Below, in pieces: positions 58,725 to 62,958 of a stretch of DNA of 64,000 nt (positions are counted from its first letter, which is position 1; the number at the start of each line of letters is the position of its first letter). Origin of the DNA: Pseudoalteromonas piscicida (GTDB lineage: Bacteria > Pseudomonadota > Gammaproteobacteria > Enterobacterales > Alteromonadaceae). The position numbers and the translations under genes were made by a program. The notes under the pieces were generated by a model that was not told where the DNA came from, ran no database searches, and worked only from the letters and a program-made list of their open reading frames with translations. Location: positions 186,001 through 250,000 of the forward strand of contig NZ_CP011925.1 of the NCBI RefSeq assembly GCF_000238315.3, read 5' to 3'.

Positions 58725-59240
58725 ATGCAAAATAGCTTAGATAAAATTGTCAATGACATAAAAGCCAACTGGAGCGCGCTAAATTCAAGCACCACAGTAA
58801 CAGTACGTGAATTGTTAAGCGAACTTACTCAGTCTCCACCGCACGAGCCTTGGCTTGCGAGCATTAAGCGTGAAAGACTAGCATCAAAAACACTCTACCA
58901 AGACCCTGACTATGGTTTTATGCTGCTAGTCCATGCCGAAGAAAAGGGCACGTACCGCCCGCCTCACGATCATGGCGCAGGTTGGGTATTTTATGCCGTG
59001 CAATCCGGCGAAATGGAAATGACAACTTACAAACCCATCACCACAGCAAGCGGCGAAACCCACCTTGTATCCCGAGGAACAGACACGCTCAAAGCCGGCG
59101 ATTGCCGAGTGTTTCTACCCGGCGATATCCACGACACCCGCTGCTTAACAGATAACTTCGTTCAATATCGTTTAACCAGTTGTGACTTCAAAGAAGAGAA
59201 ACGCTCAGGACGGATGATCCAGTATTTGAGTGAGGTGTAG
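58725..59240 (+). CDS. Cupin-fold protein, cysteine-dioxygenase-like
   Basis: 171 residues. The core GTYRPPHDHGAGWVFYAVQSGEMEMTTY contains the cupin motif 1 His-x-His and acidic residues; GDCRVFLPGDIHDTRC supplies the motif 2 His. The pattern matches small thiol-dioxygenase or CDO-like cupins, but substrate is not determined. AAGAGGCAGAGG lies upstream. Its last 77 bases are repeated at 62882-62958 with only synonymous changes, marking the edge of an inserted segment. Confidence 0.8.
   Translation: MQNSLDKIVNDIKANWSALNSSTTVTVRELLSELTQSPPHEPWLASIKRERLASKTLYQDPDYGFMLLVHAEEKGTYRPPHDHGAGWVFYAVQSGEMEMTTYKPITTASGETHLVSRGTDTLKAGDCRVFLPGDIHDTRCLTDNFVQYRLTSCDFKEEKRSGRMIQYLSEV
59164..59240 (+). repeat. 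Direct repeat, left copy (3' end of the cupin gene)
   Basis: 77 bases matching 62882-62958 with four internal differences plus the last base. The pair flanks a 3.64-kb segment carrying integron cassettes and structured repeats. Confidence 0.88.
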
Positions 59241-59372: not shown

Positions 59373-59458
59373 ACGTTCAGATAGCTCGTTTTTTGGACAA
59401 AAACGTTTTAGGTCGTCGGCTGTATTAGACGAATTTCGCTTAAAAATTCCTATGGGCC

Positions 59459-59581
59459 AACGCCCGCTTAAGTGGTGAGCTACACCCCACAACACCCAAC
59501 CATTACACCGTAAACACTAAAGCCCGTTAAAACCAAAACCGCAGAGCGTTGCGAGTCCGTATTAAAGCGTATGTTATACCC
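59459..59581 (-). other. Integron attC site 2 (long, VCR-like) ending the HEPN cassette
   Basis: Read on the minus strand, GGGTATAAC at 59581-59573 is the first R box and GCG|TTGG near 59461 the crossover end. The outer arms are imperfect inverted repeats (AAC-ATA-CGCTTTAA versus AAC-GCC-CGCTTAAG) with the usual 3-base spacers. The length of about 123 bases and sequence style (GCGGGCGTTG end) resemble the Vibrio VCR class. The 9-base R box is the exact complement of the 5' border of the same cassette (GTTATACCC at 60519-60511). Confidence 0.78.
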
Positions 59582-60470
59582 AACTCAAATTATCAAGTTT
59601 TTTATTGTTCCCTAATAGTTTTTGAAGTCGACTATGTATTTTTTTATCTAACTCCAACCCGCGAGCATCAACTTGGTCTTTAAGGTAGTCTGCTGTTTTA
59701 TCTAATAACCATGATGTAAAGTCCTTAGACTCTTGCTCTAAAAGTCTCGTAATAGATAACCCTAATGTATCTTTACTCGGGTCAATTACCTCTTTCGTCG
59801 TTGCATCATAGCCCAAAATTTTTAATTTAGATTTATCACTTATAGTAATGACACCATGGTTATGAGAAAGAGTATGCCTAACCTGAAATATTGCCTGTAA
59901 AGCTAAGTTTAATTATCGAAGATTAGATTTTGGACTGTTCTTATTGTACCTTTTTGAGCCTATAAGTGCGAAGCAGGCCTTATCAACATTATCAAGGTCA
60001 TGATAAAGTTGATGTTCAAATACCAATTCGGGAACTGAAGCTTTGGTGATACCCCACAAGACTTTCACGTCTACCGCTCCACTGAGTTTTTCTGCAGGAA
60101 CATAATGCCTAATAATCTTTGCCAAATTGATAAGGCTGGTTTTATAAAATACCTCAAAGCCATTTATAGCTTCGAGTAAAGCATTGTGCTCGGCGTACCA
60201 CTTGTACTTTCTATATGTATCATCTTTTGGTCCGCGATAATTCAGTGATTTAAATTCAGCAAGTTCTTTTCTTGCTTCGTTGAGAGCCGTATGCCTACTT
60301 TCCAACCAATTTAGATAATTTTTCTGATGCTTTAGCAAAGCCTTAAACTGATCTAAAGCACTCGATTTACTAGATTGAGCTAAGTGCTTAATCTCCTTAC
60401 TACTTGTTGAACTAACCTCTGTTCTATCTTCAAATTTTTGTATGTTTTTTGCGCCTGACGTCCGAGCCAT
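59574..60470 (-). pseudogene. HEPN-like (Rx4H) protein in an integron cassette, interrupted by an in-frame stop
   Basis: A single frame runs from the ATG at 60470 to the stop at 59574 (298 codons) and is broken only by TAA at 59913-59915. Upstream of it lie 185 residues (MARTSGAKNIQKFED..., helical, with YKTSLINLAKIIRHYVP). Downstream, the frame continues LALQAIFQVRHTLSHNHGVI, where RHTLSH fits the Rx4-6H motif of HEPN ribonuclease or RNA-binding domains, then LGYDATTKEV and a helical tail. No start codon lies between the stop and the motif, so the C-terminal part cannot be made separately. HEPN proteins commonly serve as toxins or in phage defence. One base change would restore it. Confidence 0.7.
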
Positions 60471-60510
60471 TATTGTTTTCGCCTTAAGATTATTATGCTG
60501 AACTCAAATA

Positions 60511-60573
60511 GGGTATAACTCCTCAAGTACCGGTGCAGCTTGCTGCATTCGTGTTACTTGACTTGTTAGCTGC
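60511..60573 (-). other. Integron attC site 1 (short) ending the first cassette
   Basis: On the plus strand: GTATAAC-TCC-TCAAGTA-CCGG-TGCAGC-TT-GCTGCA-TTCGTG-TTACTTGA-CTT-GTTAGCTGC. This gives paired L boxes (TCAAGTA/TTACTTGA), an inner stem (TGCAGC/GCTGCA), 3-base spacers and AAC/GTT ends, all textbook attC features. The R box GCAGCTAAC (minus strand, 60573-60565) exactly matches the complement of the 5' border of its own cassette (GTTAGCTGC at 61189-61181). Confidence 0.82.
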
Positions 60574-61167
60574 GGTTTCAAAGTTTGCTAGACGATAGAA
60601 AAGTGCAACGTATAACAAACTTAATTCGCGTAGAGCTTTGTATATAGGCTCAACGTGTTCTTTACCTGAACAAGTACCAGAAGTGTCAACTAGTGCTAGT
60701 GCTTCTGTAATCTTGTTATCCAGTTTAACTGCAAGCTCGTAGCAGTTATGATCTTTTAAGGATTGACAAATCGCAATTGCCTCTGCCAAAACTACTTTTC
60801 TACTCTCAAATGTTAATGAGTTATAGTGATCCGCGAAGCATTTAGCCAAGTCAGCTTTAATTTCTTCACTTCTTTTTTTGCTAGAAACTATTCCACAATA
60901 AAAATTTAAGGTTGCTGTTACTTTTGCAAATAAGGGACTATAAATTTCCTGCAACTTTAATATTGCGGCACTCTTCGATTTTAAATTTTCCATCGAAATA
61001 ATAGATTGCTGTTGAAGTTTGGCAATTTCTAGATCTTTTTCTTTAGTAATCTCAGCGAGCCGCTTTGATTGAATAAAAGCAAATAACATGCCAGCCACTG
61101 AAACAAAATATGGACCAATAGCCTTTACTAGCTCGATAAGATTTATGGATTGCTCTGTATTAGACAT
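60523..61167 (-). CDS. Cassette-encoded membrane/coiled-coil protein, unknown function
   Basis: 214 residues from the ATG at 61167 (GGAG 6 bases upstream; ATG 61191 lies across the cassette border). One N-terminal membrane helix (LVKAIGPYFVSVAGMLFAFI), a coiled coil (LAEITKEKDLEIAKLQQQSI), then an all-helical domain. The stop codon lies within attC site 1, as is common for cassette genes. It is the first of two tandem integron cassettes (60519-61188). I do not recognise the family; a role as partner or membrane effector of the neighbouring HEPN protein is speculation. Confidence 0.75.
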   Translation of the reverse strand: MSNTEQSINLIELVKAIGPYFVSVAGMLFAFIQSKRLAEITKEKDLEIAKLQQQSIISMENLKSKSAAILKLQEIYSPLFAKVTATLNFYCGIVSSKKRSEEIKADLAKCFADHYNSLTFESRKVVLAEAIAICQSLKDHNCYELAVKLDNKITEALALVDTSGTCSGKEHVEPIYKALRELSLLYVALFYRLANFETAANKSSNTNAASCTGT

Positions 61168-61188
61168 GAAAACTCCATGAGCAGCTAA

Positions 61189-61522
61189 CATTTGAGTATT
61201 TATGCGACAGGCAGTTTGTGTTGCATAATCGCTTATTGGACTGAGCCGCTACCTGCTCGGTGTGACAGAGTTGGTGTTGTTTATGCTATGGCTTACTTAG
61301 AAAAAATAGGCTTTTTGGAGGCTCTCACTTTTCTAGCTAGTGTAATCAGTTTAGCTAGTGTTATGTAAGCTTGCCCTGCATTGCTCAGCGCTTATTATGT
61401 ATTCATTACACCTAAATTTGGCTTGATAAGCAATTATATTTTTTACACATACAGAGGCCGCTAGCCTGAGCAATTAAGCAGGTTAACTACTTGATTTTAA
61501 GAAGCAGCCCCTCCTTGGCTGA
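61189..61522. other. Non-coding stretch upstream of the cassettes
   Basis: 334 bases without a credible gene and without an integrase. A hairpin TTATGCGACA/TGTTGCATAA (61200-61209 and 61219-61228) lies 11 bases from the cassette border and could be the remnant of an attachment site; this is weak. Confidence 0.4.
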
Positions 61523-62074
61523 TATCAAAGCGCATCCATGCGCTCCTCGTTCATTCTTTTGAAACGACGCAAAAGAACGAACCAAGAAAACGTCGCCCCA
61601 GCATCACACTCAATCCTCAAACCCTAAGCCGATATAGTGCAACCGTCTTGTAAGGCACGTCCTTGTGCCTGACAAGACTTGGCCGACATCCTGTCGGCAC
61701 ATTGCATATCAGCTTATGCTTTTCGGGTGTGATAGAGGGGAAATCGCGCTGTCTGTTAGTTCTGGTTTTATCTCCTGAAGCAGCTAAGTCGCTTACAAGC
61801 ACCACAAGAATTTATCAGCGCCTTGTGTCTCCCTCATCACACCCGAAAGTAAAGTGCCAATGAGTCATTTCAACGCATGGATGCGTGAAAAGCGGTGACA
61901 GGGCCAAGGATGGCCCTTACACCGCGGTGACGTTCATATTGGCGATTTGCTTGAGGAGTCAGTGTGATGTCGGGAGTGCCCTTTCTTTTGCATACTTGTT
62001 CTTTGGGCATCAAAGAAAAGTATGTCGTAGCCCATGGATGGGCGTCGAAACCAGTCAGGAGGACGGGCTGACTT
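61523..62074. repeat. Hairpin-rich repeat unit 1
   Basis: 552 bases, homologous to 62121-62832 at both ends with a variable middle. It contains the hairpins GTTCATTCTTTT/AAAAGAACGAAC, GTCTTGTAAGGCAC/GTGCCTGACAAGAC and GCCGACA/TGTCGGC nested inside TAAGCCGATAT/ATATCAGCTTA, GCGGTG...CACCGC around GGGCC/GGCCC, and a CATACTT/AGTATG stem. TTTTCGGGTGTGAT and ATCACACCCGAAA bracket the variable part. No frame codes for a recognisable protein. Confidence 0.82.
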
Positions 62075-62120
62075 AACTCATCGTCTCGAGTCTTTTGGAA
62101 AAATCACCTTCCATGGTACG

Positions 62121-62832
62121 TATCAAAGCGCATCCATACGCTCCTCGTTCATTCTTTTTAAACGACGAAAAAGAACGAACCAAGAAAACGTCGCCCCAGC
62201 ATCACACTTAATCCTCAAATCCTAAGCCGATATAGTGCAACCGTCTTGTATGGCACGTCCATGATGCCAGGCAAGACTTGGCCGACATCCTGTCGGCACA
62301 TTGCATATCGGCTTATGCTTTTCGGGTGTGATGGAGGGGGGAATAAGTTGCTTGTGAGATTTTCTACGCTTTTTACGATGAAGCTGTTTGCAAAGGTTAC
62401 AAAAACTATCAGCGTAGCCTCCTAACTCACAGTCTAAATAGTTTTGTGGGAGACGGTTCACCCGCCGAGTAGTTATGTTTTTCGGGTGTGGTAAAGGGGA
62501 TTAGTATTGACTGCGAGTTCTAGTTTTTCTCTTAAAAGTAGCAAATTTGCCTGCAAGCACCAAACAAAACTATCAGCACCTTGTGTCTCCCTCATCACAC
62601 CCGAAAGTAAGTTGCCAATGAGTCATTTCAACGCATGGATGCGTGAAAAGCTGTGTAAGGGCCAAGGATGGCCCTTACACAGCGGTGACGTTCATATTGG
62701 CGATTTACTTGAGGAGTCAGCGTGATGCTGGGAGTGCCCTTTCTTTTGCTAACTTTTCTTTGGGGATCAAAGAAAAGTAAGTCGTAACCCATGGAGGGGC
62801 GTCGAAACCTGTCAGGAGGACGGACTGACTTT
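62121..62832. repeat. Hairpin-rich repeat unit 2
   Basis: 712 bases, a second copy of unit 1 with a longer middle (about 62338-62572). Several stems differ from unit 1 by paired changes, for example GCTGTG...CACAGC instead of GCGGTG...CACCGC. No coding frame is credible. Confidence 0.82.
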
Positions 62833-62881
62833 ACGATAAATTTCGAGCTATCAGCCGTTATCAAAATAAACCTCCGTGTTT

Positions 62882-62958
62882 AATATCGTCTAACCAGCTG
62901 TGACTTTAAAGAAGAGAAACGCTCAGGGCGGATGATCCAGTATTTGAGTGAGGTGTAA
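62882..62958 (+). repeat. Direct repeat, right copy (displaced 3' end of a cupin gene)
   Basis: 77 bases encoding the last 25 residues of the cupin protein and a stop (TAA instead of TAG). Homology to the left copy ends abruptly at 62882. All four internal differences are synonymous. Confidence 0.88.

Follow-up and report, generated by a model that had tools for sequence, protein, structure and literature searches.

How cassettes leave integrons and come to lie scattered singly or in pairs is an open question. The locus described here, on the second chromosome of a Pseudoalteromonas, carries two cassettes arranged head to tail on its minus strand. The genome (G000) has two contigs, C1 of 4.25 Mb and C2 of 1.23 Mb, and the window, that is, the whole 64-kb stretch of DNA analysed, covers positions 186001–250000 of C2; positions given below without a contig are those of the window (Table 1). 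In a plasmid collection, the nearest named records at the locus were chromosome-sized; they came from Pseudoalteromonas sp. NC201 and from P. piscicida 2515, the latter matching at 93.7% across 54% of the query. A preliminary description of this DNA had placed two tandem integron cassettes, without an integrase, in an island flanked by gene ends. The island is real: the 3' end of a 171-aa gene is duplicated on its right side, so that the variable stretch is enclosed by gene ends, as described beforehand. The copied end measures 80 bases in the window versus about 200–230 in two other genomes, G028 and G048. Within the dispersed repeats next to the copy, three matches to TwoAYGGAY (RF01731) scored above the gathering score and one just below it (61639–62717); given this location, TwoAYGGAY may be the signature of a mobile repeat at this locus.

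Table 1. Features of the two-cassette array and its island, in window coordinates.
Feature	Position	Strand	Remarks
171-aa gene, left island edge	58725..59240	+	no Pfam match; "cupin" is a working label only
T, short dispersed repeat at distal array border	59390..59462	-	in 24/108 genomes of the genus
attC of cassette 2, VCR type	59454..59581	-	cmsearch with R2, 104.2 bits, E 8.4e-27
Cassette 2	59461..60518	-	59459-60502 recurs at 92% in G039, in other surroundings
Cassette 2 gene, 185-aa ORF, broken	59913..60470	-	84 relatives, mostly 289-322 aa
attC of cassette 1, short type	60511..60573	-	cmsearch with R1 60513-60573, 31.9 bits, E 1.6e-6
Cassette 1, GTT border to border inside own attC	60519..61188	-	9-base tags
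Cassette 1 gene, 214 aa	60523..61167	-	ATG behind GGAG-like site
F, array head, right end of IS91-family element	61186..61508	-	truncated; transposase absent here
Dispersed repeats with TwoAYGGAY (RF01731) matches	61509..62877	.	between F and gene-end copy
Partial copy of 3' end of 171-aa gene, right island edge	62878..62957	+	80 bases, 94% identity to 59160-59239

The 9-base border tags lie exactly where they had been placed, GTTAGCTGC at 61189–61181 pairing with GCAGCTAAC at 60573–60565 for cassette 1, and GTTATACCC at 60519–60511 with GGGTATAAC at 59581–59573 for cassette 2, all on the minus strand. Such an anatomy had been called diagnostic; the cassettes are confirmed, but the tags by themselves carry less weight than claimed: a 9-base partner with GTT behind it was found for 10 of the 1085 minus-strand GTT sites in the window, the two real ones included, and for 10 of the 1263 plus-strand sites, so that tag pairs alone, seen for roughly 1% of GTT sites whichever strand is read, are not diagnostic. 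The observation is nevertheless settled, because attC site structure as captured by covariance models, and not the tags, decides. An attC finder demanding paired R boxes missed the sites of the window, the R' box being part of the cassette that follows, and the tag test and models were used instead. Model R1 was built from 16 other attC sites of the genus that adjoin intI (15 pairs; covariation score 0.579 versus 0.118 in shuffles), and model R2 from nine VCR-type attC sites, with the window left out. The attC of cassette 1 was recovered by R1, which gave one other match in the window up to E 10 (11.4 bits) and no match at the attC of cassette 2; the latter was the sole match of R2 in the window. 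The covariance search that the preliminary description had named as the test of its claim thus matched both sites, and the two attC are indeed of different type. RNAalifold on nine VCR-type relatives paired the R and L boxes and left an unpaired bulge. The attC of cassette 2 matched 86 plasmid records; among the 20 listed, identity was 82–87% and most were from Vibrio, Shewanella and Pseudomonas, and these listed relatives include the attC of a fos cassette (array with sul1/qacEdelta1, Shewanella xiamenensis plasmid).

No intI gene was found in the 64-kb window. A search of the whole genome with NCBIfam TIGR02249 found two matches above the cut-off on C1 (462 and 394 bits versus 265) and a broken intI at 894819–895376 of C2, so that "integrase-less" holds for the window and not for the genome. 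An attC site lies at 896402–896469 of C2, about 1 kb from the broken gene. The search for further attC sites in the same genome, also proposed beforehand, yielded seven sites by R1 and six by R2 at E ≤0.001, with one site common to both and the two of the window among them. The array is accordingly a two-cassette CALIN (an attC cluster without an integrase), a known and ordinary kind of locus: at least two clustered attC sites were found by the covariance models, and no intI lies nearby, the broken copy being the sole match on C2, outside the window at 186001–250000. A complete integron has intI beside attI at the array head; here the head is the repeat F, and it is this head that is unusual and recurrent.

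The cassettes themselves gave few functional clues. The cassette 1 protein is predicted to form a long helix and a helical bundle (model mean pLDDT 77.6); none of its 18 relatives besides itself (151–233 aa) has a precomputed Pfam domain, and a 67% relative of the cassette lies between two attC sites in another genome (L052, G047). The cassette 2 gene is broken here, because its relatives are longer and the likeness runs on past the stop in the same frame (tblastn of P0020, 93% over 298 residues). Neither cassette protein matched a Pfam family above the cut-off or a convincing PADLOC family, and the cassette 2 family gave no match to a solved fold below E 0.001. A conserved RHTLSHN stretch, an RX4H motif of the kind known from HEPN proteins, was seen in this family; the ORF in the window ends before it. 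No F was found by the F-core search in G039, the genome that holds the close relative of cassette 2.

The preliminary description, correct on the cassettes, had missed the array head, an IS91-family right end that stands before cassettes throughout the genus. The cassette border at 61187 is the edge of F, whose terminus in the window reads as a hairpin, ATACTCAAAT, and then G followed by TTAGCTGC. The full-length element, 2.57 kb long, encodes a Y2 transposase of IS91 type together with a tyrosine recombinase, and F forms its last part. In relatives, the Y2 transposase and a zinc domain lie directly before F (L023, PF04986, E 7.7e-51; PF14319), and annotated records agree with the IS91 assignment, an "IS91 family transposase" being annotated beside F in a P. 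arctica record; these full-length relatives identify F as an IS91-family right end. In many copies, just the last 235–335 bases match the full element. The hairpin near the right end has 11 pairs in one copy (L128, z −3.0), and in the window copy it is no better than shuffled sequence (z −0.1). The F core was present in 32 of 60 genomes of the genus and in 12 plasmid-collection records, all Pseudoalteromonas, as well as in Colwellia and Cognaticolwellia; no match was found in a phage collection. A search of F for an outward promoter gave a single promoter-like match, on the opposite strand and at chance level. On a conjugative plasmid of P. agarivorans (NZ_CP033067, L196), F has small ORFs of the same strand on one side and, on the other, a recombinase with a mercury-resistance operon.

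To examine how regularly F precedes cassettes, we compared the window copy with 46 others, 40 chosen from the higher-scoring F-core rows and six from other loci; these copies are relatives and not independent samples. All 47 share the same AT-rich end and turn into new sequence from GTT (in a few ATT, GTA or a shifted form). An attC model match (E<0.01) lay on the cassette side and on the right strand in 22 of the 46 (window excluded), and on the element side in one (L137, two matches). For the 40, the search covered about 119 kb of element-side sequence, counting the element itself, and 122 kb of cassette-side sequence. At one long locus (L056), a 2.8-kb distance limit left out an attC 2.8 kb away on the element side, which belongs to the array of a neighbouring F. 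The 8-base border tag at F was matched by its own tag in 25/47 copies (window included) versus 116/2140 for foreign tags, and the 9-base tag in 19/47 versus 53/2154; with a chance rate of about 5%, one to three of the F tag matches may be spurious. Together, tag or attC model supported a cassette behind F in 33 of the 46 copies, with neither in the remaining 13 (L053, L133 and L134 among them). In 44/46 copies, an ORF of ≥60 aa on the same strand began no more than 120 bases from the GTT, versus 474/1160 GTT[AG] sites of the window. At 34 further F loci (27 named genome loci and seven from the plasmid collection, at least nine of them on contigs already used), attC matches were found in 14, in every case, going by the match tables, on the flank of F that faces the cassettes. 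A second subfamily of F, distinguished by its hairpin, had attC on the cassette side in all four stretches searched (L157–L160). These comparisons show that F precedes cassettes genus-wide and that the junction is precise, between the G and the TT.

The distal end of the array is bordered by a second repeat, T, at which an attC model match ended in 16 of 27 T loci searched. No empty F, free of cassettes, was found; a search of 108 genomes for F joined directly to T (up to 3 mismatches) returned three sites, none F-like by BLAST, two of which proved to be attC followed by T. In six genomes (L236, L237, L239, L240, L241 and L263), the 1.4 kb behind T is common and the sites before T differ, which marks another variable array site.

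At this locus, G000, G028 and G048 carry orthologous F with both flanks matching, and the cassettes differ; each of the three genomes shows cassette borders or attC. The cassette beside F in G048 recurs, at 94% identity, in G028, where it is the second cassette of a different F locus; the likeness begins in TTAGCTTT, includes the attC and ends at its border, and the shared cassette, whose 318-aa ORF was taken by eye as a glycerophosphodiester phosphodiesterase, lies directly at F in G048 and behind another cassette in G028. P. piscicida 2515 also has F at this locus with different neighbouring DNA, in which no attC was found by R1 and no tag partner, in a stretch that ends before the far flank; NC201 showed no F in the stretch examined. 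At a second orthologous F locus, L141 and L129 share neighbour DNA and L134 differs, and at a third, L053, L055 and L133 all differ beside F. Part of the differing DNA at these two loci is without attC support, because L053, L133 and L134 lack both tag and attC.

Over a span of eight bases, the F terminus is similar to an attI core. Its consensus, ACTAAAAT followed by GTT, is identical at 7 of 8 positions to the attI2 core, AATAAAAT followed by GTT, as given in the excerpts of PMC12901181, and a 7/8 match was found in 29/47 F copies versus 1/2347 GTT sites of the window, in a comparison made after the motif was seen; the F copy of the window matches at 6/8. The likeness to the attI sites of the genus itself is only moderate: among GTT[AG] sites ranked with a weight matrix from 18 attI rows, the F consensus lies in the top 1.1% and the window copy in the top 5.9%. 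General homology of F with the attI of the genus integrases was considered and rejected, as no F occurred beside intI at 31 loci, read out to 1.5 kb or to where the contig stopped. Outside these 31, F-type ends can stand in the place of attI, as seen at two loci, L157 (G058) and L268 (G035). In L268 (G035:C28:1-3000), a 54-base F-end palindrome at about 970–1025 lies between a gene start and a 5'-truncated intI; in L157 (G058:C1:3628000-3640000), a whole IS91-type element, with an F of the second subfamily, separates a broken intI from its cassettes.

The recurrence of one F-and-cassette arrangement throughout the genus, in which a given spot can hold different cassettes, suggests transposon ends as landing sites for mobile genes. 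We consider the chances about even that F ends are portable docks, similar in role to attI, for an integrase acting in trans, and we infer recombination at F. F would then stand in for attI; an integron integrase would insert circular cassettes at the GTT ending F and would excise them again; and this integrase would act in trans, its gene probably lying on the other contig or having been brought in from outside. An IS91-type element would have scattered F through the genome, thereby providing more landing sites. The cassettes would have come to F, and not F to the cassettes, because F is found at the head only, and inner borders would be equal targets. The presence of F showed no association with intI (26 of 47 genomes with intI versus 6 of 13 without one above the cut-off), and the integrase may therefore act from plasmids, be lost or be unneeded. 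Somewhat under even weight goes to a wider reading, namely that in Pseudoalteromonas the IS91-type right end may double as attI, each transposition planting a portable dock, and that one integrase in trans may load, exchange and move cassettes at many sites in genome and plasmids. The G035 case and the thinner support at both further orthologous loci pull in opposite directions and leave the odds for F as a dock unchanged.

The order of events could also be reversed, with the IS91-type element inserting at cassette borders (GTTRRRY), in the way that attC is targeted by certain introns and IS elements, and F preceding cassettes because the border is its target. The junction of the 47 copies compared falls at GTT or close variants of it, shifted in one (L149). 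IS91-family elements need a four-base target at their right end. Such insertion would work in genomes without intI, the element in L157 does sit between intI and cassettes, and an IS91-like element beside attC is described for Shewanella in the excerpts of PMC9229058. We nonetheless judge it unlikely: the inner borders offer the same target, yet attC was found on the element side of just one of 46 F copies, and different cassettes occupy orthologous F at this locus.

Still less probable, in our assessment, is that cassettes reached F once and were later swapped by homologous recombination between the dispersed repeats (F, TwoAYGGAY and T). The cassette shared by G048 and G028 speaks against it, being bounded by cassette borders and lying at F in one genome and behind an attC in the other, although F with its neighbours forms long and similar repeats, T repeats border the distal array ends, and no intI is needed. 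The array might finally be a remnant of a decayed chromosomal integron that came to lie by chance beside a truncated IS91 element, in keeping with the broken gene in cassette 2, the truncated F of the window with a hairpin no better than shuffled, and the broken intI on the same contig; we regard this as the least credible account, as the supported F-cassette junctions in 33 of the 46 other copies, and their recurrence across the genus, disfavour it. If F ends are docks, the scatter of cassettes would be non-random, a transposon family setting their landing places on chromosomes and plasmids, and the integron platform would be spread over the genome while the integrase stays elsewhere.

Several known systems share parts of this arrangement. 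The excerpts of PMC9229058, PMC9892861 and PMC12901181, which cover part of each paper and make any absence weak, hold no description of IS91 ends heading integrase-distant cassette arrays. CALIN and SALIN (attC clusters or single attC without an integrase), described there as common in Shewanella (PMC9229058), likewise have attC cassettes without a neighbouring intI; their head is an anonymous flank, whereas that of the window array is a defined, dispersed transposon end. Closest in its parts is ISShvi3, an IS91-like element that adjoins attC in a Shewanella integron and is said to yield a new cassette structure (PMC9229058, excerpts); compared by its description only, it is a single case inside an integron, in contrast to F, which heads a cassette in 33/46 copies. 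Group IIC-attC introns and IS1111-attC elements are also mobile elements tied to cassette sites (PMC9229058, excerpts), and they insert into attC, unlike F, which lies at the 5' head of arrays. As for the site itself, IntI1 uses attG and delta-attI sites (PMC12901181, excerpts), again an integrase acting on short GTT-containing sites other than a full attI; those are genomic sites or attI remnants, while F is the repeated end of a mobile element. Finally, a CALIN in a Shewanella prophage has its own attI (PMC9892861, excerpts), so that there, too, an attI-type sequence, ending in TAAAATGTT, heads an integrase-less array; in that case the head is a copied attI, and in the window it is an IS91-type end, alike only at the core.
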